From Desulfobacterales bacterium (lineage in GTDB: Bacteria; Desulfobacterota; Desulfobacteria; Desulfobacterales; JAHDSC01), in contig JAFGES010000069.1 in the NCBI GenBank assembly GCA_016931455.1, forward strand, positions 1 to 37,721: a stretch of DNA of 37,721 nt. Reading direction: 5' to 3'. The position numbers were made by a program, and so were the translations under genes. Numbering within the stretch: position 1 is the stretch's first letter; each line of letters opens with the position of its first letter. The notes beneath the pieces were generated by a model. That model was given only the letters and a program-made list of their open reading frames with translations. It did not search any database and had not been told where the DNA came from. Shown here piece after piece: positions 87 to 28,183 of this stretch.

Positions 87-1790
87 TTATAAAAGATCGA
101 TGGTAAACCGAAAATGGATGCCATCATTCTGAAAGTCATAGTCCTGTTTTTCTGAAGCCGGCTCAAGGGCGTGGGCCACGTAGAGTTCGGCCTCAAGCCT
201 GTCTCCATAGGACCATAGCAACCCCAGACCGATGGAATGCAGTTTGTCATCATGGGCGGACTCTCCTTTATTCCAGGCTGAGCCGAAGTCCATGAACGGT
301 GCCAGATGTACAGTCCACTTTGTCTCGTCAGCATCTGTACGCGGCCAGAGCGGGTAGCGCCATTCAACGGAAAGGTTGTAACCATTGTCCCGGACAAGTT
401 CGTTTTCTCTATACCCCCGAACGGTGTTGGCCCCCCCGAGGGCAAAACGTTCCATGGACAAAAGTCGATCTTCTGAAATCTGGAGGTCTCCCCGAAAGAT
501 AAGCTGCCCCCAACTTTTCCTCAGACGCTGTGCATATTGCACCTGGCCCAACCAAGTCAGAAACTTGCCGTCCGGGAGTCTATTTCCATGAATCGTGGGG
601 CCGAAAAGATCGACACCCAGGCTAAAAGTGGAGCGAAGGGCCAGGGCTGTTGTGGAGGTCCGGTCAACAAAGGATTGGATCAATCGCAGGGCCGTAACGC
701 GGCTCTCACCTGCTTCAGCTCCGGACGTAAAGGAGAAGGGGTCCCCGAGAAGAAAGGTGTTACTCTTCTGAATCTCCAAGGTACCTCCTATTTCCAGAAT
801 TCGGCCAAGCCTGTGCAGAACGGGGTGGTCGAGTGTCAGTTCCACGGTTTCGGTTTCACTTTCAATATCCGCTGATGCAAGTGGTTCCTCAATCACGGAG
901 TTGTTACTGCGGCTGTAACCAAGCGACAGTCGCGTGCCTTCCCCGCTCAAAGGAATGGTATATCTTGCAGCAATTTCGTCACCCCCTTCACTCAGACTAA
1001 AGGAGGCGTCGAGTTTGTCACCAAAACCGGTCAGATTCCAGAGGATTCCTGCCAAGACGCCACGCTCCGCACCTATACTGGGCGGGCGGTGATTGTCCCC
1101 GATGAAACGAAGCGCATAGGGCCGGGACCGGTCGACATGTAGATCAAGAAAGGCCTCACCAGGAGACATGCCGGGCCGAATGCGGCCGTCCATCTGTTCG
1201 ATAAGGGGGTCTTGCAGGAGCAATTGGAATCGTTCCTGCAAAACCTTGATGTTGAAAGGCTGTTCCGGGTCAGGCCAGATCCTTTTCCGGATGTAGGTAG
1301 GACGCAGGCGCCGGTTGCCGGTCACCTCCACATCATCCAAACGACCCTCCTGTATGAGGTAGATGACTTCACCGTCATCCACCTGCTGGTCGGGCTTAAT
1401 AATGGCACCGGAATTTACGTATCCCTTGTCCACGTAATGGCGTGTGAGGCGGTACCGCAATTCCTCCAAGGCCTCCAAGGTGACCGAGTGTTTAAGAAAT
1501 GGAAAAGCAACCCTTCCAAGCTCTTCATCTGAAAAGACTATATTTCCTTCAAAAACCACACTCTTCAAAGTAAAGGAAGTCTTGCCGGGCAATTTATTCG
1601 ACCTTGTTGGCGGCGAGGGGAGAGTGAAGTCAGGACCTGCCGGCTGATGCAGATAATCCGGCAGATCTAGTCGATCTTTTCCGGGCTGAGTCTGAATTGG
1701 AATAGATGGCTCAGATGATTCTTCGGCTTGGCTGGTTACAGCAAAAACCATCAACGTAAGTAACAGGCTTATGTAAGCAACGGTTTTCAT
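87..1790 (-). CDS. Two-partner secretion outer-membrane transporter (TpsB, ShlB/FhaC family)
   Basis: Outer-membrane pore that would export the exoprotein encoded just upstream. The 567-residue protein starts with a clear signal peptide (MKTVAYISLLLTLMVFAVTSQA). A proline-rich linker follows, then two POTRA domains: about residues 70-150, opening with FTLKSVVFEGN, and about 150-225, opening with LDDVEVTGNRRL. The rest is a beta-barrel of about 16 strands. The Omp85/TpsB loop-6 signature VRGY is present in GGANTVRGYREN near residue 455, and the final strand ends FRFTIDLL, as expected for Bam recognition. Length matches the family. Its ATG overlaps the exoprotein stop codon by 4 nt (ATGA), so the pair is translationally coupled. 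Base composition is visibly more G+C-rich than the housekeeping genes, which could mean transfer. Family assignment is firm; the substrate is inferred from adjacency. Confidence 0.93.
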   Translation of the reverse strand: MKTVAYISLLLTLMVFAVTSQAEESSEPSIPIQTQPGKDRLDLPDYLHQPAGPDFTLPSPPTRSNKLPGKTSFTLKSVVFEGNIVFSDEELGRVAFPFLKHSVTLEALEELRYRLTRHYVDKGYVNSGAIIKPDQQVDDGEVIYLIQEGRLDDVEVTGNRRLRPTYIRKRIWPDPEQPFNIKVLQERFQLLLQDPLIEQMDGRIRPGMSPGEAFLDLHVDRSRPYALRFIGDNHRPPSIGAERGVLAGILWNLTGFGDKLDASFSLSEGGDEIAARYTIPLSGEGTRLSLGYSRSNNSVIEEPLASADIESETETVELTLDHPVLHRLGRILEIGGTLEIQKSNTFLLGDPFSFTSGAEAGESRVTALRLIQSFVDRTSTTALALRSTFSLGVDLFGPTIHGNRLPDGKFLTWLGQVQYAQRLRKSWGQLIFRGDLQISEDRLLSMERFALGGANTVRGYRENELVRDNGYNLSVEWRYPLWPRTDADETKWTVHLAPFMDFGSAWNKGESAHDDKLHSIGLGLLWSYGDRLEAELYVAHALEPASEKQDYDFQNDGIHFRFTIDLL

Positions 1791-4700
1791 TTTGCTACAT
1801 TCTCTGAAGAGTCTTTTTCGATTTCTTCCCGAAGCAATTTATCCAAACGTTCACCGCCGAAAGAAGTCGTCGAGGGCTCATCCGGACCTGCCGGGAGCCC
1901 ACCCCGTCCGACAGGAATTAAGGTACTGGGGGTTTGACCCGTTGCAGCCTGGCAGAAGTCTGTTGCCATTTGTAACTTTTCGGCAAAGTCGATGGATAAA
2001 TTTGCTAAAATCCCGCTGATATCCAACTCTGGGACGGCAATATTGATATTACCGGGATTACCATCAGGAGCAGCAGCCTGAATGATATTTATGCCGCTGC
2101 CGGGCTCAAAAAACTTTCTTTCCAATTCGCCGATTTTCAATATTTCCCTTGCCGCGATCACTGTCACTGAGCCGGGATCGATAAAAATATTTCCACCAGA
2201 GGCTTCTTCAGCCGCTGTGTTGGCCTGAATAAATCCGCTGTCGAGTATGAGGACATCAGCCAGACTGGCGGTCCCTTCGATGATAATGTCACCGCCGTCT
2301 CCCGATAGGCCTTCAACGGATGTAGTAATAAGGCCGTCACGCAGAAGAAGCGTTTCTGCTTTAATAGCTATTGTCCCCCCATCAGCATTTTCGGAGGTGG
2401 TCGTTATGCTGCTTCCATTTTTGACATACAATTGGTCCGCTACGAGTTTAATGGCGGCAGCCGGTACATTGTTTTTACTCTCCGCAGTAACTTGGCCATT
2501 CTGATCAAGATGCATACTATTTGAGATGATTTTAATCTTGCTATCGGGAATATCATCGAGACGATCATCTGGAAGCGTATTGAGCGCGGCGATACTGATT
2601 TGGCCATTGTTTTGAATTTTCAAGGAATCAGTCTTGATGAAGATTTTGCCAACATAACCGAGTGCTTCTTTCTCAGCGCGGCTAAATACACCGGTGTTCT
2701 TTTCATTGTTATATCCGTCAATTTGTAAAGAAGAGGCCGTAATCTTTATACTACCAGCATTTCCAACCGAAAAAGTCGTAGTTGCAATTTTTGCATCATT
2801 GGATAGCAACTCAATTTGACCATCAACAGAGACAACTATTGTTCCAGAGTTACCACTTGAACCGATACCTGCTTCGCTTAAAATGCCGCTGACATTTTCA
2901 ATTCTCAGTTCCCCTGCATTGACCGTTACACTTCCCGCATCGCCTGCAGCAAGAGTATCACTTGAAATCAATGCACCATTCAGCAATTCCAGCAGGCCAT
3001 CCACCGTTACCTCCACTGTCCCCGCATTGCCCGTTGAACCTGGATTTGACTGACTTGCAATCCCCGCGAATATGTCTTCCGCTCCTTCAATCTTGAGATC
3101 TCCTGCTTTAACCGTTACACTACCCGCATCACCTGCTGAAAATGTACTGCTTGATATTTCAGCAAAATTTAACAGTTCAAGCCCCCCATCAACAGAAACA
3201 TTTACCATACCAGCGTTGCCCGTTGAACCTGGATTTGCCTGGCTTGCAATACGCGCAAGTCTGCCTTCCGCTCCTTCAATCTTGAGATCCCCTGCTTTAA
3301 CCGTTACACTACCCGCATCACCTTCAGCATAAGTATCACTTGAAATGAATGCACCATTTAGCACTCCCAAAAGGCCATCCACCGTTACCTCCACTGTCCC
3401 CGCATTGCCCGTTGAACCTGGATTTGCCTGGCTCGTAATATTACTCATCCCTTCAATCTTGAGATCTCCTGCATTGACCGTTACACTGCCCGCATCACCT
3501 GCTGAAAATGTACTGCTTGATATTTCAGCAAAATTTAACAGTTCAAGCCCCCCATCAGCAGAGACATTTACCATACCGGCGTTGCTCGTTGAACCTGGAT
3601 TTGCCTTGCTTGCAATACGCGCAAGTCTGCCTTCCGCTCCTTCAATCTTGAGATCTCCTGCTTTAACCGTTACACTGCCCGCATCACCTTCAGCATAAGT
3701 ATCACTTGAAATGAATGCACCATTTAGCACTTCCAAAAGGCCATTCACCGCCACCTCCACTGTCCCGGCCTTGCCACTTGAACCTTGATTTGCCTGGCTC
3801 GTAATATTACTCATCCCTTCAATCTTGAGATCTCCTGCATTAACCGTTACACTGCCCGCAGCGCCTGCAGAATATGTGCTACTGGAAATTCTCGAATTAT
3901 TATTCAGTTCAAGGAGACCAGCCACAGAAACATCTATTGCTCCAGCGTTTCCACTTGAACCGGTACCCGCTCGGCTTAAAATGCCGCTACCATTTTTAAT
4001 TCTCAATTCCCCTGCATTGACCGTTACACTACCGGCATCGCCCTGAGCATCAGTACCACTTGAGATGAATGCACCATTCAGCACTTCCAAAAGGCCATCC
4101 ACCGTCACCTCCACTGTCCCGGCCTTGCCCGTTGAACCCACAACAGTAGCACTTAAAATACCACTGAATAATTCTATTCTGAGTTCCCCTGCATTGACCG
4201 TTACACTACCTGCATCGCCTGCAGAAAAGGTGCTGCTTGATATTGCCGAGCCATTCAGCACTTCCAGCTGGCCATCCACCGTCACCTCCAGTGTCCCGGC
4301 CTTGCCACTTGAATCTAGATTTGCCTGACTCGTAATATTACTCCTCCCTTCAATCTTGAGATCCCCTGCTTTAACCGTTACACTACCCGCATCGCCCTGA
4401 GCATAAGTATCACTTGAAATGAATGCACCATTCAGCACTTCCAAAAGGCCATCCACCGTCACCTCCACTGTCCCGGCATTGCCTTTTGAACCCATACCAG
4501 TAGCACTTAAAATACCACTGAATAATTCTATTCTGAGTTCCCCTGCTTCTATCCTTACATTACCAGCATCCCCCATACCATTGGTACAAGATGAGATTCC
4601 GAAGACATTGTTGATATAAATTTGATTTTTAGCAGAAATTGATACTTCTCCAGCATTGCCCTCTGACCCTACTGCTGTTTCACTGCTTATTCCGGCTATG

Positions 4701-5947
4701 AAATCTTTTTCACGATAAGAGACACCACGCCCTTCTCCATCAAATAGCACATCTCCGGCATCGATTCGAACCGGTCCTGCATTACCATTCCCCCATGTTG
4801 AACTTGTGATGGTTCCAACACCCTGGATGCTTATTGTATCTTCCACATCGACGGCAATTCCAGCGGCATTTCCGATAGCTGCTGGCTCTACTTCACTAAA
4901 CAAACCCGTAAGCCTTTCTCCCTCCTCTTGTTCTATCTGCAGACTTGCAGCCTTTACCTTAACGCAGCCGGAATCCCCGGCTCCAAATGCATTACTCTCA
5001 ACACGGCTACCCCGATCGATCCTGAGCAGTCCGTTAACCGCAATTTCAACTCCACCTTTAATATCATCAATATCGCTATCATTGTTAGCCGATACAGTCG
5101 CAGCACTTATCCGGGCATCGCCTGCGCCCAGAGTTACTCGTCCACCGCCTGCTCCGCTGGCATCCACGCGGGCAGCTTCGATAAGCACCTTTCCTCCTAT
5201 TTTTTCAAACCCACTGTTTTCCAAAAATACTGTTCCGGTCTGATCCCCCATGGCGGTCAACCTGATCTCCCCCCCCTCACTAACCAACGACGCTTCCTGA
5301 TTGTCAGCCCCCTTTATGGTCACATCCCCACCGTCAAGGGACACCTCACTTGACGGCGCAAAGGTCAGGCGACTTCCTTTCAGGACGATGCTCGCCGGCT
5401 GCGGTGACAGGTACCCGAAGTTAACCGGGGTAGCAATACTCAGGGTGCTCTTCCCCAGGTCTGTGGCGCTGAATACATTCCCGTCATCGAACCGCAACTC
5501 ATCAGCAGTGCTCACATGGAAAGCGGCGGGAACATCCACCTGGGCATTAGGTCCAAAGAAAACACCGGCTGGATTAATGAAGAAAAAATTCGCCTGTCCC
5601 ACCTGGGAGCGGAGTAGTCCGTCAATGGTCGACGCTTCGCCGCCAGTTACCCGGCTGATGACGTTATTGATAAAATTCGAGCCGGTAAAGGTGGCACTCT
5701 CATCACTGTTGAGGCCAAACCTTTCGAAGCTATGGAACAGGTTTCCGCCGGATGTCGTACCGAGAGTCTGCGGAATCTGGTAATTCGGACCGGCCAGCGA
5801 TTGTGCCGGGCCAACCGTGCCATCGGTTGCCACATCAGCAGCTAATTCTGGGGGAGCACAAAACAGTATAATAAGGGACATTAAAATGCTTATTAAGGAG
5901 GCGTTTCTTTGTGAATCGAGAAGAGGGAATGGGGGTATCATTTTCAT
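1787..5947 (-). CDS. Two-partner secretion exoprotein (TpsA, filamentous haemagglutinin-like)
   Basis: Secreted beta-helical exoprotein of 1386 residues. A long signal peptide covers residues 1-38 (hydrophobic core LISILMSLIILFCAPP, cleavage near ELAADVA). The TPS secretion domain runs about 40-180, with the typical SFERFGLN, FINNVISRVTGG and FFINPAGVFFGPNA blocks. The middle is a long beta-helix, with about eleven repeats of 59-63 residues between residues 460 and 1080 (anchor GDAGSVTV). The C terminus has the conserved Cys (DFCQAATG) and a GRGGLP motif near residue 1350, as in cyanobacterial-type TpsA proteins. No adhesin, toxin or protease domain is recognisable, so its surface role (adhesion or aggregation) is inference. 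The start is supported by an AGGAG-type ribosome site and a promoter 33-60 bp upstream. It is cotranscribed with the transporter gene. Confidence 0.92.
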   Translation of the reverse strand: MKMIPPFPLLDSQRNASLISILMSLIILFCAPPELAADVATDGTVGPAQSLAGPNYQIPQTLGTTSGGNLFHSFERFGLNSDESATFTGSNFINNVISRVTGGEASTIDGLLRSQVGQANFFFINPAGVFFGPNAQVDVPAAFHVSTADELRFDDGNVFSATDLGKSTLSIATPVNFGYLSPQPASIVLKGSRLTFAPSSEVSLDGGDVTIKGADNQEASLVSEGGEIRLTAMGDQTGTVFLENSGFEKIGGKVLIEAARVDASGAGGGRVTLGAGDARISAATVSANNDSDIDDIKGGVEIAVNGLLRIDRGSRVESNAFGAGDSGCVKVKAASLQIEQEEGERLTGLFSEVEPAAIGNAAGIAVDVEDTISIQGVGTITSSTWGNGNAGPVRIDAGDVLFDGEGRGVSYREKDFIAGISSETAVGSEGNAGEVSISAKNQIYINNVFGISSCTNGMGDAGNVRIEAGELRIELFSGILSATGMGSKGNAGTVEVTVDGLLEVLNGAFISSDTYAQGDAGSVTVKAGDLKIEGRSNITSQANLDSSGKAGTLEVTVDGQLEVLNGSAISSSTFSAGDAGSVTVNAGELRIELFSGILSATVVGSTGKAGTVEVTVDGLLEVLNGAFISSGTDAQGDAGSVTVNAGELRIKNGSGILSRAGTGSSGNAGAIDVSVAGLLELNNNSRISSSTYSAGAAGSVTVNAGDLKIEGMSNITSQANQGSSGKAGTVEVAVNGLLEVLNGAFISSDTYAEGDAGSVTVKAGDLKIEGAEGRLARIASKANPGSTSNAGMVNVSADGGLELLNFAEISSSTFSAGDAGSVTVNAGDLKIEGMSNITSQANPGSTGNAGTVEVTVDGLLGVLNGAFISSDTYAEGDAGSVTVKAGDLKIEGAEGRLARIASQANPGSTGNAGMVNVSVDGGLELLNFAEISSSTFSAGDAGSVTVKAGDLKIEGAEDIFAGIASQSNPGSTGNAGTVEVTVDGLLELLNGALISSDTLAAGDAGSVTVNAGELRIENVSGILSEAGIGSSGNSGTIVVSVDGQIELLSNDAKIATTTFSVGNAGSIKITASSLQIDGYNNEKNTGVFSRAEKEALGYVGKIFIKTDSLKIQNNGQISIAALNTLPDDRLDDIPDSKIKIISNSMHLDQNGQVTAESKNNVPAAAIKLVADQLYVKNGSSITTTSENADGGTIAIKAETLLLRDGLITTSVEGLSGDGGDIIIEGTASLADVLILDSGFIQANTAAEEASGGNIFIDPGSVTVIAAREILKIGELERKFFEPGSGINIIQAAAPDGNPGNINIAVPELDISGILANLSIDFAEKLQMATDFCQAATGQTPSTLIPVGRGGLPAGPDEPSTTSFGGERLDKLLREEIEKDSSENVAK
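2922..4560 (-). repeat. Tandem repeat array inside the exoprotein gene (177/189-bp period)
   Basis: The complement of the GDAGSVTV codons (accgttacac) recurs at 2922, 3111, 3300, 3477, 3666, 3843, 4020, 4197 and 4374, with a decayed copy near 4551. Spacings are exactly 189, 189, 177, 189, 177, 177, 177 and 177 bp, that is 63 or 59 codons. The 12-bp difference is a four-residue insertion (the AEGR/AEDI segment) in some units. Each unit reads as about two to three coils of a right-handed beta-helix. In-frame spacing means unit gain or loss would keep the reading frame. Confidence 0.95.
3111..3842 (-). repeat. Recent 366-bp tandem duplication within the array
   Basis: The two-unit block 3111-3476 (189+177 bp) is repeated at 3477-3842 with few mismatches, for example over the stretch beginning cctgctgaaaatg at 3132 and again at 3498, exactly 366 bp apart. 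The match is much closer than between other units. That points to a recent unequal crossover or slippage event adding 122 codons. Confidence 0.85.
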
Positions 5948-22172: not shown

Positions 22173-22222
22173 AAAATAAAACAAGGCTGAATTCTTAAAA
22201 GGGTTCAGCCTTGTTTTATTTT
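22173..22222. terminator. Bidirectional rho-independent terminator between atpE and uvrA
   Basis: A 19-bp perfect inverted repeat with left arm 22173-22191 (AAAATAAAACAAGGCTGAA), a 12-nt loop and right arm 22204-22222. The GC core (AAGGCTGAA) is flanked by A runs on the left and T runs on the right, so it works on both strands. The uvrA stop codon at 22216 lies within the right arm, so the end of uvrA coding sequence is part of the hairpin. Confidence 0.9.
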
Positions 22223-25044
22223 GTCTCACGAGATAAGACTTTTTTTAAAAATTGCCCGGTATAAGAGGCCTGGATATTTGTTAGTTCTTCCGGAGTGCCG
22301 CACCCTACGATATACCCCCCCTCATCACCGCCTTCCGGGCCGAGATCAACAATGTAGTCGGTTGATTTGATCACGTCCATATTATGTTCAATCACAACAA
22401 CCGTATTACCAGCATCCACCAGCTTATTCAGCACATCAAGAAGCTTATGGATGTCATCCATATGCAGTCCGGTAGTCGGCTCATCAAGGATATAAATCGT
22501 CCTACCGGTGCCTTTTTTGCTAAGTTCCCTTGCCAGTTTGATTCGTTGAGCCTCACCCCCGGAAAGTGTGGTAGCCGCTTGACCAATACGAATATAACCC
22601 AACCCGACATCAATCAGTGTTTGTAATTTTGTTGTGATATTTTTTATATTTCTCCAAAACACCAAGGATTGATTGATGGTCATATCGAGAACTTCAGCTA
22701 TATTTCTCCCCTTGTACCGAATTTCCAGCGTCTCGCGGTTATATCGTTTACCATGGCACATATCACAGGCAACATAAACATCCGGAAGAAAATGCATCTC
22801 TATTTTTATGATGCCGTCACCGCGGCAGGCCTCACACCTTCCACCCTTGAGATTGAAACTGAAACGACCGGTCTTGTAACCTCGCGTCCGAGCTTCCATC
22901 GTTCGGGCAAAAAGCTCGCGTATATCTGTAAAAACTCCTGTGTAGGTTCCTGGGTTCGATCGCGGTGTTTTCCCAATGGGTGTTTGATCGATGTTAACAA
23001 CTTTATCGATAGATTCAATCCCACGTATACATGAATGCTTTCCAGCCGGAATGCGGGCGTGATAAAGCCTTTGGGCGAGGGCTCGGTATAAGATCTCAAG
23101 GACAAGAGTTGATTTACCCGAGCCGGAGACACCGGTTACACCGATGAAGCAACCCAAAGGCAATTCCACATCAATACACTTAAGGTTATTTTCAGATGCC
23201 TCCTTGATAATCAGTTTTTTTCCTTGGCCTTTGCGTCGCTTTTGTGGGACTTCAATCCGCTTTTTGCCTGAAAGATACTGTCCCGTTAAGCTCTTACATT
23301 CCTGAAGCAATGCTTCAGGGGTTCCGGAAAATACAACCTGTCCCCCATTGATACCGGCACCCGGTCCCATATCAATAACATAATCGGAAGCAAGAATGGT
23401 CTCTTCATCATGTTCAACAATCAGCACCGTATTGTCGAGATCACGCATCTGTAAAAGCATCTCCAGCAAACGTTGATTATCGCGCTGATGCAATCCGATG
23501 CTAGGTTCATCTAGAACATAGAGCACGCCGGTTAATTTCGACCCAATCTGGGTGGCTAATCGTATCCTCTGGCTCTCACCACCGGATAACGTATTCGCAG
23601 ATCTGTTCAGAGTTAGATAACCGAGACCCAATTTCTCGAGAAAACCGAGCCGTTCATTGATTTCCTTCAAGATTCTTTCGGCAATGATTCGTTTTTTTCC
23701 ATTGAGTTTCAGCCCATTGATAAAATTTCGGGCTTTTACCAAAGAAAGCCCCGTTATTTCCGATAGAGTAAGATTGCCGACTTTAACGGATCGAGCGGCT
23801 TGGTTTAATTTGCTGCCATTGCATTCGGGGCAAGGACGAAAATCCATATACCGCTCAATCTCTCTTCGTATTTGATATGAATCGGTTTCTTTGTAACGTC
23901 GTTCTAAGGTCGGTATTAGCCCTTCAAATGGCTTTTTATAATAAAAGCGCTTATTATCTCGATCAAAATGAAAGGTTATTTTTTCATCACCTGATCCGTA
24001 AAGCAGAACCTGTTTAAAATCATCCGGCAACTCTTTATATGCGGCATAGAGATTGACTCCATAATGCAGCGTAAGTGCCTCTAAAAATTCATAAAAATGA
24101 GCAGAGTTCCGGTTTGCCCAGGGCAGGACCGCACCCTCCCTTAAAGAAATTTCTTGGTTTGGTGTAATAAGATCCGGATCAAACTCGGTAGTTGAGCCTA
24201 GACCGCCACATTTAGGACATGCACCTTGCGGAGAATTAAAAGAAAAACCGGCAGGAGTAAACTCAGGATAACTGACTCCGCATTGGACACAAGCCGCTTT
24301 TTCACTAAAAAGAATCGGTTCACTTCCTTGAATATCCACCGTCACAAGGCCACCGGACAGAGCCAAAGCCAATTCTAAAGAATCTGCAAGCCGTTTTTGA
24401 ATATTTTTCTTTGTGATCAAGCGATCGACCACGACATCAATGAAGTGTTTTTGGTTTTTGTCAAGCTTATTGATTTCCTCAATTTCAAGGATTTCACCAT
24501 TTAGACGCACGCGGGCAAAGCCCTCTTTTTTCAATTGCTTGAAAAGTTTTATATGCGTACCCTTCCGGCCGCGAATAATTGGTGCTAAAATAATAATTCG
24601 GGTACCTTCAGGTAAAGACATCAATTGATCGCCGATCTGATCCATTGTCTGCGATGTAATCGGCCTTCCACATTTGTAGCAATGGGCTGTGCCGATTCTA
24701 GCGAAAAGGAGTCGAAGGTAATCGTAAATTTCAGTGACTGTTCCAACGGTTGACCGAGGGTTGTGACCGGCTGTTTTTTGCTCAATGGCTATGGCCGGTG
24801 AAAGTCCTTCTATGATATCGACATCCGGTTTTTCCAACCGTTCGAGAAACTGTCGGGCATAGGTTGAAAGTGACTCCACATATCGTCGCTGACCTTCTGC
24901 ATAAAGCGTATCAAATGCAAGACTGGATTTACCGGAGCCGGAAAGACCGGTTATGACAACAAGCTGATTGCGAGGAAATTCAACATCGATATTTTTTAAG
25001 TTATGCTGTCTGGCACCACGAATGATGATTTGTTTGGATTGCAT
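22216..25044 (-). CDS. uvrA: Excinuclease ABC subunit A
   Basis: DNA damage-recognition ATPase of nucleotide excision repair, working with UvrB and UvrC. It is 942 residues, the usual size. Two ABC modules are visible. The first has Walker A TGLSGSGKSSLAFDTLYAEGQ and signature LSGGESQRIRLA. The second has Walker A TGVSGSGKSTLV and signature LSGGEAQRIKLARELSK, each followed by YxLDEP-type Walker B. The zinc knuckles include CYKCGRPI, CVQCGVSYPEF with CPKCGGLG, and CEACRGDG with CDMCHGKRY. It is transcribed alone, converging with atpE. There is no clear SOS box upstream. Confidence 0.97.
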   Translation of the reverse strand: MQSKQIIIRGARQHNLKNIDVEFPRNQLVVITGLSGSGKSSLAFDTLYAEGQRRYVESLSTYARQFLERLEKPDVDIIEGLSPAIAIEQKTAGHNPRSTVGTVTEIYDYLRLLFARIGTAHCYKCGRPITSQTMDQIGDQLMSLPEGTRIIILAPIIRGRKGTHIKLFKQLKKEGFARVRLNGEILEIEEINKLDKNQKHFIDVVVDRLITKKNIQKRLADSLELALALSGGLVTVDIQGSEPILFSEKAACVQCGVSYPEFTPAGFSFNSPQGACPKCGGLGSTTEFDPDLITPNQEISLREGAVLPWANRNSAHFYEFLEALTLHYGVNLYAAYKELPDDFKQVLLYGSGDEKITFHFDRDNKRFYYKKPFEGLIPTLERRYKETDSYQIRREIERYMDFRPCPECNGSKLNQAARSVKVGNLTLSEITGLSLVKARNFINGLKLNGKKRIIAERILKEINERLGFLEKLGLGYLTLNRSANTLSGGESQRIRLATQIGSKLTGVLYVLDEPSIGLHQRDNQRLLEMLLQMRDLDNTVLIVEHDEETILASDYVIDMGPGAGINGGQVVFSGTPEALLQECKSLTGQYLSGKKRIEVPQKRRKGQGKKLIIKEASENNLKCIDVELPLGCFIGVTGVSGSGKSTLVLEILYRALAQRLYHARIPAGKHSCIRGIESIDKVVNIDQTPIGKTPRSNPGTYTGVFTDIRELFARTMEARTRGYKTGRFSFNLKGGRCEACRGDGIIKIEMHFLPDVYVACDMCHGKRYNRETLEIRYKGRNIAEVLDMTINQSLVFWRNIKNITTKLQTLIDVGLGYIRIGQAATTLSGGEAQRIKLARELSKKGTGRTIYILDEPTTGLHMDDIHKLLDVLNKLVDAGNTVVVIEHNMDVIKSTDYIVDLGPEGGDEGGYIVGCGTPEELTNIQASYTGQFLKKVLSRETK

Positions 25045-25219: not shown

Positions 25220-25262
25220 AGAATAATTAAGATTTTGCAAGAATCGCTTTTTTAATTATTCT
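25220..25262. terminator. 11-bp perfect inverted repeat downstream of the small ORF
   Basis: AGAATAATTAA (25220-25230) pairs with TTAATTATTCT (25252-25262) across a 21-nt loop. It begins 41 bp past the stop of the small minus-strand ORF at 25303, and an A/T-rich stretch follows on that strand. It could be a weak terminator or a protein-binding palindrome in the uvrA upstream region. Confidence 0.35.
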
Positions 25263-25302: not shown

Positions 25303-25539
25303 CTATGTTAGAGAAAGATTGTATTTAAAAGCAGTTGCCGATTTATTAATTTTTATTATAATAATTTCAGGCACTTTTAAATTGTTAATAACTTGTTCAC
25401 AACCAAATACAAAATCGTTTTCATCCCATTTGACATCAAAGCGCCGATATCTTAAATAGCACCCATCAACGGAAATTTTAGCACTATTTGCATAATCCGA
25501 CATAAAATTTGAGATAGATTTTTCAAACCGTTTATTCAT
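25303..25539 (-). CDS. Small hypothetical protein, unrecognised
   Basis: A 78-residue ORF beginning MNKRFEKSISNFMSDYANS, with KISVDGCYLRYRRFDVKWDEND in the middle and a basic C terminus. An in-frame GTG at 25581 would add 14 residues. No domain is recognised, and there is one Cys. It is divergent from the dnaA-like gene 80 bp away. The protein has normal-looking composition and a possible hairpin lies downstream, but the ribosome site is poor. A chance ORF in AT-rich DNA is possible. Confidence 0.4.
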   Translation of the reverse strand: MNKRFEKSISNFMSDYANSAKISVDGCYLRYRRFDVKWDENDFVFGCEQVINNLKVPEIIIIKINKSATAFKYNLSLT

Positions 25540-25620: not shown

Positions 25621-26964
25621 ATGGAAGCTATTTGGGAAAAATTAAAAATCGCTGTTAGGGAAGTTATTCCCGAACACAGTTTCAGGATGTGGATTGAGCC
25701 GATAGAATGCAAAGAGGAAAAAGAGGACAAACTCGTACTTACTTGCCCTAATTTTTTCTCCAAAAAAAGAGTTCAAGATCATTACGGTTCCATACTAGAA
25801 TCAGAAGTAACCAAAATTTTAAATAGAAAATACGGAATTTTATTTGAAGTTTCCGGCGAAAAGGCGAATACCAAGAAACAAGATCCGAATTTAGACCATC
25901 AACTCACCCTTCCGAATGTACAATCTCATGGCTATGGGGGGCGCCTGTTAAGAAAAGATTTTACATTCGATCGCTTTGTGGTAAGCGGAAACAATAACTT
26001 TGCTTATTCAGCAGCCCGCTCACTCGCCTCACTAAACGGATCGAGCCAAAATTCACTGTTTTTATTATCAAAAACCGGGATGGGAAAAAGCCATTTAGCC
26101 CAGGCCGTGGGACACCATATTTTATCTCAACATCCTTCAGAGCGTTTATATTATATTACAGCTGAGGATTTTACGAACGAAATGGTTCATGCTATCCGCC
26201 ATGATTCAATTGACAAATTTAAACAAAGATACAGAAATCAATGTGATGTCTTGCTTTTAGAGGATATCCACTTTCTGACCGGTAAGGAACGGACTCAAAT
26301 TGAGCTGGCTTTAACGATCGATTGTTTGTTTGAAGCAAACAAAAAAATAATTTTCTCAAGTTGTTATCTTCCGGCAGAAATTCCAAAACTCAATGATAAG
26401 TTAAGCTCTCGGCTCGCATCAGGTATTATTTCCAATATAGATCCGCCGAACTTCAAAGAAAGAGTTAAAATATTACAGAAAAAATCAAATGAAAAAGGAT
26501 ACACCTTACCACCGGAGGTAACCGAATATTTGGCGGATGAACTTTCAGATAATGTCCGGCAACTTGAAAGCGGGCTAATCGGAGTTACCGCAAAAGCATC
26601 ACTTTTGGGGAAACCGATTGATCTTAAGCTTGCTCAAAGTATCGTAAAAAATATAGCCCGGCAGCGTAAAAATATAACAATCGATGTGATAAAAAAACTA
26701 GTATGCAAGGAATATAAAATTTCGATCAGTGATATTATTTCACGTTCGCGTAAACAATGTGTTGTCCGACCTAGACAAATCGCAATGTACCTTTCACGCA
26801 AGTATACGGACCAGCCGTTGCAGACAATTGGAAGAAGCTTTAACCGATATCATGCCACCGCACTGCATTCAATTGGTGCCATCGAACGTGAATTAAAGCA
26901 TAGTACTCCAACACAGAAACAAATTGAATTGCTGAGTCAAAAATTAGAGTCCGGCAATTTTTGA
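25621..26964 (+). CDS. Divergent DnaA-type replication initiator ATPase
   Basis: A 447-residue protein with the full DnaA layout. Domain I covers about 1-75 (IWEKLKIAVREVIPEHSFRMWIEPI), then a short linker. The AAA+ domain covers about 112-345 (FTFDRFVVSGNNNFAYSAA, LLLEDIHFLTGKERTQ). The C-terminal helix-turn-helix covers about 345-440 (RPRQIAMYLSRKYTDQPLQTIGRSF). Two key motifs differ from textbook DnaA. The P-loop is SKTGMGKS (150-157), with Ser in place of the first Gly. The DNA signature RDHTTVLH is RYHATALH (409-416). It stands alone, without dnaN, and faces away from uvrA. It may be the organism's main initiator in a divergent lineage or a second paralogue; I cannot decide from one window. 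Confidence 0.85.
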   Translation: MEAIWEKLKIAVREVIPEHSFRMWIEPIECKEEKEDKLVLTCPNFFSKKRVQDHYGSILESEVTKILNRKYGILFEVSGEKANTKKQDPNLDHQLTLPNVQSHGYGGRLLRKDFTFDRFVVSGNNNFAYSAARSLASLNGSSQNSLFLLSKTGMGKSHLAQAVGHHILSQHPSERLYYITAEDFTNEMVHAIRHDSIDKFKQRYRNQCDVLLLEDIHFLTGKERTQIELALTIDCLFEANKKIIFSSCYLPAEIPKLNDKLSSRLASGIISNIDPPNFKERVKILQKKSNEKGYTLPPEVTEYLADELSDNVRQLESGLIGVTAKASLLGKPIDLKLAQSIVKNIARQRKNITIDVIKKLVCKEYKISISDIISRSRKQCVVRPRQIAMYLSRKYTDQPLQTIGRSFNRYHATALHSIGAIERELKHSTPTQKQIELLSQKLESGNF

Positions 26965-27200: not shown

Positions 27201-27398
27201 TTATTGTACCTTCATGAACATACTATCTGTAGATACCAGTTCTTCCAAAAGTTCTATTCGAATATTCTGATCAGATTCTATGGTGCAACGCAGGCTTAAT
27301 GCACATAATTTTTTACATATTGGGTCTTTTCGATTAAAATTCCCAAAACATCCTGAATGTGCATCAAGATAAATTCCATTATTCGAGTCTTTTTTCAT
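27201..27398 (-). CDS. Small four-cysteine protein coupled to suhB
   Basis: A 65-residue protein (MKKDSNNGIYLDAHSG...) with four Cys at residues 17, 28, 32 and 38, in the pattern C-x10-C-x3-C-x5-C (GCFGNFNRKDPICKKLCALSLRC), then a charged helix (RIELLEELV). Four clustered Cys with basic surroundings suggest a zinc or iron-sulfur knuckle. Its ATG overlaps the suhB stop by 4 nt (ATGA), which strongly argues that it is translated. I recall similar short CFGNFN...C...C proteins in related genomes but know no function. It is the last gene of the minus-strand run that begins at rpsF. Confidence 0.7.
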   Translation of the reverse strand: MKKDSNNGIYLDAHSGCFGNFNRKDPICKKLCALSLRCTIESDQNIRIELLEELVSTDSMFMKVQ

Positions 27399-28183
27399 AT
27401 TTTATCCTTTAGCTCCAGTAATAAGAGCATTTCATTATGAATTTTACCGTTAGTTGCAAGAATCTCTTTTTTCTCAACTGTAAACGGCTGGTCTGAAAAA
27501 TCGGTTACAGCAGCGCCGGCTTCACTTGCGATCAAAAATCCGGCGGCTGTATCCCAAGGTTTTAATTCCTGTTCCCAATATCCATCAAAACGTCCACAGG
27601 CGAGAAAACAAAGATCAAGCGCAGCAGAACCGAGCCTGCGAATCCCCTGAGATGCTTTTAAGCAATTTAAAAAACGCGTCATCAATGGATCTATAATCGT
27701 TTTAAAATTATAAGGAAATCCGGTTACCAACAGGCTTTCTGAAACTTCTTTCGTATTTGAAACGTTTATGGTTTGCCCATTTAGTTCTGCCCCATGGCCC
27801 TTGATAGCTGTAAATAGCTCACCGGTTATGGGGTTTAAGACAATACCCATTACGATATCGCTGTCTATGGCAAATGCGATTGAGATGGAAAAAAGGCTCA
27901 ATTGATGGGTAAAATTTGTTGTACCATCGAGCGGATCGATAATCCACTGATAGCCTTGCTTACCATCGATTCTCCCGCTTTCTTCCGCTAAGATTGAATG
28001 TTCGGGAAAATTCGAGCGAATGGTGTCAATTATTAATTTTTCAGCTTCAGTATCAGCTTCAGTCACAAGGTCAATCGCACCTTTTTTGTTGACCTTTGAT
28101 AAGTTCCCGAAGTGAAACAGAAGTTTCTTTGCACCTTTATCGGCAGCATCGATACCGACTTTTTTCACAAAATTCAAATCCAT
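27395..28183 (-). CDS. suhB: Inositol monophosphatase family protein (SuhB-like)
   Basis: Mg2+-dependent sugar or inositol phosphatase of 262 residues, normal length. The metal sites are visible: VTEADTEAEKLI, ILAEESG with the conserved Glu, WIIDPLDGTTNFTHQL (the DPxDGT motif, about residues 82-90) and the C-terminal WDTAAGFLIASEAGA. Substrates could be myo-inositol 1-phosphate, fructose 1,6-bisphosphate or others. In E. coli SuhB also assists ribosomal RNA transcription. Its place downstream of ribosomal and translation genes makes that side role thinkable but unproven. It starts 28 bp after hflX. Confidence 0.92.
   Translation of the reverse strand: MDLNFVKKVGIDAADKGAKKLLFHFGNLSKVNKKGAIDLVTEADTEAEKLIIDTIRSNFPEHSILAEESGRIDGKQGYQWIIDPLDGTTNFTHQLSLFSISIAFAIDSDIVMGIVLNPITGELFTAIKGHGAELNGQTINVSNTKEVSESLLVTGFPYNFKTIIDPLMTRFLNCLKASQGIRRLGSAALDLCFLACGRFDGYWEQELKPWDTAAGFLIASEAGAAVTDFSDQPFTVEKKEILATNGKIHNEMLLLLELKDKI

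Follow-up and report, generated by a model that had tools for sequence, protein, structure and literature searches.

In general, DnaA is regarded as a single orthologous gene whose box is near-universal, the canonical case being DnaA and oriC of Escherichia coli and Bacillus subtilis. At least one origin survey counted solely TTATCCACA, with at most one mismatch (PMC4403523). The residue numbering and the contact roles of R399, P423, 432-435 and 438-439 used here follow PMC5742627 and PMC5043019; according to the former, from which the Arg finger R285 is also taken, Arg399 is the minor-groove reader of the 5' TTA of the box, and major-groove reading of the 3' part falls to the helix from 434. 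A lineage-specific shift in box reading is described for Epsilonproteobacteria, where the 433-434 dyad is called highly conserved, T is fixed at position 5 of the box and C is retained at position 6, a rare C-to-A change there being tolerated (PMC5043019). Among titles and abstract beginnings, a search in which subscription journals mostly fell outside the scope, we recognised no paper on the DnaA box of Desulfobacterales or on DnaA displacement.

The DnaA of Desulfobacterales (hereafter, the order) that is analysed here resembles the canonical proteins in domains I, III and IV, in the Walker A core and in R285, R334, R399, H434 and T436, and its predicted box agrees with theirs as TTATN.ACA apart from position 6. 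It differs from them by P423 to Q, D433 to Y, T435 to A, Walker B D to E and the loss of the sensor 1 D, and the system as a whole differs in that C6 of the box would be replaced by A or G, dnaA is not next to dnaN, and the main split of the DnaA tree lies between this protein and theirs. The order would share with Epsilonproteobacteria a lineage-specific shift, although its change falls at position 6, which in the Epsilonproteobacterial boxes is C with a rare change to A tolerated (PMC5043019). It has in common with Thermotoga maritima an N-R-x-H motif with a changed residue 433 and a non-standard box, but the T. maritima box ACCTACCAC (PMC10316083) is unlike TTATNAACA, the A6 form of the order. 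Divergent DnaAs from other families of the phylum (for example G113, G150, G185, G112, G134) lie on the same side of the tree and are likewise not near dnaN, whereas residue 433 of such proteins is varied and the sites seen upstream of dnaN are TTATCCACA in G112 and G184 and TTTTCGACA in G169.

The DnaA of the window

The window, meaning the whole stretch of 37,721 nucleotides that was analysed, has the following features (names of genes flanking dnaA are read from the sequence, and a changed box is one with A or G at position 6):

87-1790, minus strand: outer-membrane-transporter-like ORF, following the exoprotein-like ORF
1787-5947, minus strand: large, repetitive exoprotein-like ORF
22216-25044, minus strand: uvrA-like gene, upstream of dnaA
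25262..25270, minus strand: candidate changed DnaA box TTGTTAACA, upstream of dnaA
25383..25391, minus strand: candidate changed DnaA box TTATTAACA, within TTGTTAATAA (25382-25391)
25394..25402, minus strand: candidate changed DnaA box TTGTGAACA, 11 bp from the TTATTAACA box
25429..25457, plus strand: probable dnaA promoter, TTTGACA-N16-TTAAAT, read from the sequence; the window has CATTTGACA
25621..26964, plus strand: dnaA, 447 aa, ATG start, with domains I, III (AAA+) and IV (HTH)
26068..26091, plus strand: Walker A SKTGMGKS, S150 to S157 (aa 150-157)
26845..26868, plus strand: box-reading motif RYHATALH, R409 to H416; Y410 is E. coli D433 and A412 is T435
27395-28183, minus strand: inositol-monophosphatase-like gene, downstream of dnaA

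The reading frame at 25621-26964, which a first-pass annotation had taken for a DnaA-type initiator, is a full-length DnaA whose coordinates and frame had been given exactly. DnaA_N, Bac_DnaA and Bac_DnaA_C (Pfam) all score above cut-off, TIGR00362 matches with 415.3 bits (cut-off 343.9) over positions 1-437 of 437, and the closest solved structure is B. subtilis DnaA 8btg (E 2e-81). All three motifs to which that annotation drew attention are present, namely SKTGMGKS, RYHATALH and the Arg-finger segment SSRLASGI (S262 to I269), as are the changes D433 to Y and T435 to A relative to E. coli. Its "altered P-loop" holds insofar as Ser takes the place of the first Gly in GxxGxGK[S/T], but the alteration is mild and GxGKS is intact; SKTGMGKSHL is found in 17 of 51 order rows and in 45 of 80 named loci. 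Two differences from E. coli that it did not mention are a Walker B of LLLED (vs LLIDD) and a sensor 1 of SSC (vs TSD), and Q401 stands where E. coli has P423. H434, T436, R399 and the Arg finger R285 are retained, and the protein has Walker A GxGK[S/T] as well as R334, which we take to be sensor II. V211 and R245, the ssDNA residues of PMC10316083, are also present.

In the genome of this organism (3.38 Mb in 133 contigs, 97% complete) the window ORF is the only Bac_DnaA match. Exactly one DnaA match above 150 bits was observed in 54 of 58 order genomes, while G006, G032 and G052 had no match and G057 a single one of 23.6 bits; all remaining matches in the 58 genomes reached at most 46.2 bits. 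In an overlapping second sample, 59 of 60 order genomes had one match at E <= 1e-30. It is close to certain that the window DnaA is the sole replication initiator of its genome. The notion of a "second initiator" is consequently wrong in its literal sense, this being the only DnaA found, but apt in an evolutionary one, as the protein groups with a second lineage that coexists with canonical DnaA in at least six genomes. The regulatory role that was also proposed finds no support, given that this is the one DnaA of the genome and that its core initiator residues are retained. One draft genome of the order (G239) has three separate Bac_DnaA_C matches, on contigs C6, C31 and C52 and in frames of 448-454 aa, which represent either duplication or contamination.

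The changes of the window protein are those of the order. An alignment of 51 order rows with E. coli DnaA shows Tyr in 50 and His in one at the position of D433, Ala in 50 and Gly in one at that of T435, and Gln in 42 at that of P423, while R399, H434, T436 and R334 are retained in all 51 and R285 in 46. The Arg finger R285 is replaced by His in two order DnaAs and by Ser in three (L003, L022, L024, L038, L049), a loss that is surprising in an essential initiator. Among the 80 named loci, which are mostly titled Desulfobacterales, Desulfobacteraceae or Deltaproteobacteria and partly overlap the other order set, the motif reads FNRYHAT in 71, FNRQHAT in five, FNKYHAT in two, and FNRYHGT and FNRYHST in one each.

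The gap 5' of the window dnaA is 576 bp long and AT-rich. A promoter-like (G)GTTTGACA element is conserved upstream of dnaA, its window copy being that at 25429-25457, which a consensus promoter scan of the window did not report; GGTTTGAC is found in 14 of 29 order dnaA upstream regions, mostly 130-230 bases 5' of the start codon. Elsewhere in the window, the minus-strand ORFs at 87-5947 resemble what is presumably a two-partner secretion pair, and repeat finding in the intergenic regions gave weak pairs only.

Boxes upstream of dnaN and dnaA

The window has no dnaN, as had been noted before; the single dnaN match of the genome is on another contig, C48. Equally borne out was the lack of a standard-box cluster beside dnaA: TTWTNCACA occurs 6 times in the window (4.5 expected), its nearest copy to dnaA being at 28161. 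The changed boxes at 25262, 25383 and 25394 had been missed. The TTGTGAACA site reads TTGTTCACA on the plus strand (25393-25401), one letter from the E. coli consensus TTATNCACA. The pair pattern of the boxes at 25383 and 25394 occurs once in its own genome, and in its strict form it was seen in 10 of 56 genomes, once in each, and never in reversed controls; four of these ten sites are upstream of dnaA, two upstream of dnaN and four at neither. Contig C48 carries the following:

C48 55433-55581: second box array, with spacing 101, 22, 17 (vs 101, 23, 17 in the array at 72556-72705)
C48 69954-71066: dnaN, followed by gyrB
C48 71079 and 71118: candidate A/G6 boxes by dnaN
C48 72556 (minus), 72657 (plus), 72680 (minus), 72697 (plus): candidate A/G6 box array in an AT-rich gap, spanning 72556-72705

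The cumulative GC skew of C48 (153 kb) reaches its minimum at 70-75 kb and dips less deeply at 55 kb. Preceding dnaN there is an ORF without a Pfam match and then an RdgC-like gene (PF04381, 25.5 bits, cut-off 25), beyond which lie the 0.49-kb AT-rich gap and two tRNA-Ser genes. The A/G6 array of this genome lies at the skew minimum, near which the first-pass annotation had recommended looking for an enriched 9-mer. Only two TTATNCACA occur in all of C48 (89483 and 101824), none of them within 16 kb of the array, and no standard-box origin, in the sense of a cluster of TTATNCACA, was found in the order or in this genome. The two C48 modules (L370, L371) are AT-rich, 242 bp long, 82% identical and 17 kb apart, and would represent either a duplicated or a multi-part origin. 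A third, partial copy of the module lies by dnaN on C48, and repeated modules near dnaN were also seen in G049 and G090. Genome-wide, TTRTNAACAA is hardly enriched (121 vs 103 in the reversed control), so that the signal lies in clustering at dnaN and dnaA.

Initially, the dnaA upstream region was favoured as oriC for its box pair and AT-rich gap. It was dropped since the skews of G011 and G090 put dnaA far from the minus-to-plus switch and the minimum in the window's own genome is at dnaN. In G011, the sampled skew stays below zero between 2.5 and 4.45 Mb, save for one stretch, and is above zero over most of the span between the record start and 2.25 Mb; dnaN lies at 4.42 Mb and dnaA at 1.23 Mb, and the skew-placed origin is about 35 kb from dnaN. 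In G090, where dnaN is at position 1, the skew turns negative at 2.08-2.34 Mb and is positive or near zero at 4.25-4.9 Mb; dnaA, at 2.66 Mb, is nearer the presumed terminus, and the skew-placed origin is 0.3-0.9 Mb from dnaN. The skew of G049 was too noisy, one stretch being masked, and outside the window's own genome skew locates the origin only roughly.

For the order as a whole, we sampled at most 2.7 kb upstream of dnaN from each of 39 genomes (103,861 bp) and compared site counts with first-order resampling and with the rate in 52 20-kb stretches, free of dnaA and dnaN, taken from three order genomes. The A6 form TTATNAACA was found at 87 sites in 32 of the 39 genomes (7.8-8.1 by resampling, 6.1 from other regions), none being present in this 2.7 kb in the other seven, and the G6 form TTATNGACA at 27 sites in 16 genomes (3.9-4.1 and 4.8). 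The standard C6 form TTATNCACA is at chance, with five sites in five genomes (4.0-4.2 and 2.9), and T6, TTATNTACA, occurs four times in four genomes (5.2 and 2.8). Among the 24 single-letter variants of TTATNAACA, only G at position 6 is clearly raised (6.6-fold, the others being at most 2.6-fold). The densest TTRTNAACA arrays hold 14 sites in 0.83 kb (G032) and 7 in 0.37 kb (G007), a back-to-back box pair 17 bp apart is present in 10 of the 39 genomes, and no TTRTNAACA lies within 4.5 kb upstream of dnaN in five of them, two of which have TTATNGACA.

A6 is not exclusive to the order, because in 29 canonical genomes (dnaA flanks, 33,767 bp) an excess of A6 (19 sites, 1.7 expected) accompanies that of C6 (28 sites, 0.9 expected). 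Nevertheless, the A6:C6 ratio is 87:5 in the order vs 19:28 in canonical genomes (Fisher p 4e-12, with L055 omitted as a near-copy of L054, and comparing 2.7 kb upstream of dnaN in the order with 1.2 kb dnaA flanks in the canonical genomes); counted per genome, A exceeds C, C exceeds A or the two tie in 31, 1 and 7 order genomes vs 4, 11 and 14 canonical ones. Upstream of dnaA (700 bp) there are 40 TTATNAACA (3.7 expected) and 6 TTATNCACA (1.8 expected) at 50 order loci, as opposed to 9 (0.8 expected) and 19 (0.6 expected), respectively, at 39 canonical loci, and among the named loci A6 was found 96 times (5.8 expected) in 63 of 75 and C6 8 times (3.2 expected) in 8 of 75. The earlier suggestion that this protein may bind a different box is thereby reinforced, with TTATN(A/G)ACA as the putative replacement of TTATNCACA upstream of dnaN and TTATNAACA as the predicted main box upstream of dnaA, and these statistics strongly support a changed box as the predicted target of the order's DnaA.

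Two DnaA lineages and the history of the order

A tree of 115 rows, from which fragments (L007, L029, L078) and L062, L065 and L074 were dropped, splits the DnaAs of the phylum into 39 canonical and 76 divergent rows (SH-aLRT 99), groups that were named after the first tree had been seen, and all 51 order rows are among the 76. In a tree rooted on T. maritima, whose own placement is therefore fixed by choice, and containing 18 of the 51 order rows and neither L081 nor L121, the divergent side has a support of 99, and the support for placing E. coli and B. subtilis among the canonical rows is only 87. In a third tree, of 38 rows chosen by hand, the branch separating canonical DnaAs and E. coli from the rest has 100 bootstrap and 100 SH-aLRT support. 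A constraint that united the order with the canonical rows and kept both E. coli and the remaining divergent rows out of that group was rejected by 111 log units (p-AU 2e-83), although it also moves E. coli and the rejection may rest largely on that move. A constraint joining the order, the canonical rows and E. coli against the other divergent rows was not rejected (p-AU 0.154), though its tree may still hold the order beside divergent rows; due to this result the exact placement of the order within the divergent side is not fixed, and the odds for displacement are lowered. The window DnaA does not group with canonical DnaA in these trees, with some doubt arising from the long branches and from the latter constraint. 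Within the phylum, at least six genomes (G099, G113, G121, G131, G150, G185) possess both DnaA types. In three further genomes (G116, G153, G188) there are two DnaAs apiece, all of which the tree puts on the canonical side.

Gene order follows the same division. Canonical dnaA is within 5 kb of dnaN in all 27 genomes checked (G116, G153 and G188 being excluded), whereas this is the case for none of 27 divergent pairs outside the order (24 classed by tree and three, G163, G166 and G169, by score and family only) and for none of 51 order genomes, some of which were classed by one strong match only. The two genes are on separate contigs in 21 of the 27 divergent pairs and 46 of the 51 order genomes, and where they share a contig they are never closer than 103 kb in the order and 49 kb in the divergent pairs. 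The expectation that would have made this locus unremarkable, an ordinary single-copy DnaA with standard boxes, turned out to be half right: the protein is the ordinary DnaA of the order and single-copy, but its predicted boxes depart from the standard.

These observations suggest an order whose initiator has changed and whose origin has been rewritten to suit it. We consider it probable that the sole DnaA of the order derives from the second lineage, that the canonical gene was lost, and that the protein reads TTATN(A/G)ACA at an origin on the dnaN side. Judging from the tree and gene order, a second lineage would have split from the canonical dnaN-linked DnaA and taken over in the order, with loss of the canonical gene. 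Conserved residues point to a protein that would bind ATP through a slightly altered yet complete P-loop, oligomerise through its Arg finger, contact ssDNA and read sequence through the HTH of domain IV, where the recognition helix (Y410 and A412, with Q401) would recognise TTATN(A/G)ACA and not TTATNCACA, C6 becoming A or G. The array of such boxes upstream of dnaN is the probable replication start, the smaller set at the dnaA promoter probably serves autoregulation, dnaA would be located away from the origin, and origin opening and helicase loading are assumed to proceed as in other DnaAs.

One may also consider that no displacement took place. The order's DnaA would then be a vertical orthologue of the canonical one that left the vicinity of dnaN and diverged quickly, its box changing with it, and the divergent clade would in part be a long-branch artefact. 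This scenario is possible yet rather unlikely: long branches are indeed flagged in the trees, placement within the divergent side is not fixed, and T. maritima also pairs a changed NRSH motif with a changed box, but at least six genomes hold both DnaA types, the order rows sit with the second copies and away from canonical DnaA (SH-aLRT 99; 100/100 in the 38-row tree), and no dnaA of the divergent side is near dnaN (0/27 and 0/51). On balance, the evidence favours a history in which a second lineage replaced the ancestral DnaA, the main rival being fast divergence of a relocated dnaA.

That DnaA still reads standard boxes, and that the TTATN(A/G)ACA arrays are the sites of another protein or a by-product of AT-richness, appears improbable. 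Several sites are near-palindromic, as is the case with dimeric regulators; however, standard boxes are at chance upstream of dnaN (five vs four expected), the only clear rise among the variants of TTATNAACA is that of position-6 G, and the sites agree with the DnaA box at every other position and are located at dnaN and dnaA. Hardly credible is the scenario in which the window protein is an accessory or regulatory DnaA and the assembly, being incomplete, lacks the true canonical dnaA: the genome is a draft of 133 contigs, but no second strong DnaA was found in 54 of 58 order genomes or in 59 of 60 of the overlapping sample, and these include the single-contig genomes G011, G073, G077 and G090, which contradict a missing canonical dnaA.

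Residues 433 and 435 and box letter 6

P423 is changed besides 433 and 435, alongside box letter 6. Since Arg399 and the 5' half of the box are unchanged, whereas the start of the helix (433, 435) and letter 6 have changed, the direction of the change is the expected one. Residue 433 alone was rejected as the determinant of letter 6, the pattern not being clean. The following counts are small and uncorrected for relatedness. Genomes with D433 and A435 (G118, G127) have TTTTCAACA, so that A435 with D433 also accompanies A6; this box occurs three times each in G118, G127 and G134. Named loci with Q433 and A435 have TTATNAACA in four of five cases, and a canonical-type locus with N433 and T435 (L072) has five A6 and no C6. 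Divergent genomes with D433 and S435 (G112, G184) have TTATCCACA upstream of dnaN, in one and two copies, and canonical D433 genomes, under the looser TTWTN.ACA, have 49 C6 and 33 A6. In divergent DnaAs outside the order residue 433 is D, N, R, H, Q, K, S, T or G, and TTTTCGACA occurs seven times upstream of dnaN in G169. Some other-family divergent DnaAs (L351, L353, L355, L363) seem to be paired with yet other boxes. For the Gly435 (NRYHGT) loci L045 (of G011) and L201 no TT[AGT]TN.ACA was found upstream of dnaA, and upstream of dnaN G011 has only TTTTCCACA and TTGTTTACA; the box of these DnaAs may have changed again.

Taken as a whole, we lean slightly towards a history in which Desulfobacterales lost the dnaN-linked DnaA and run on the second one, the origin stayed by dnaN while its boxes went from TTATNCACA to TTATN(A/G)ACA, genomes elsewhere in the phylum with both DnaAs would document the state that preceded the exchange, and letter 6 would be set jointly by residues 433 and 435. 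If this is true, a whole order has changed both its initiator and its box, and searches for the standard box may readily overlook its origins or put them in the wrong place. The combinations of residues 433 and 435 with letter 6 would then form a natural residue-to-base series for the co-evolution of initiator and origin, and the genomes holding both DnaAs would be a setting in which to study the replacement of an essential initiator.
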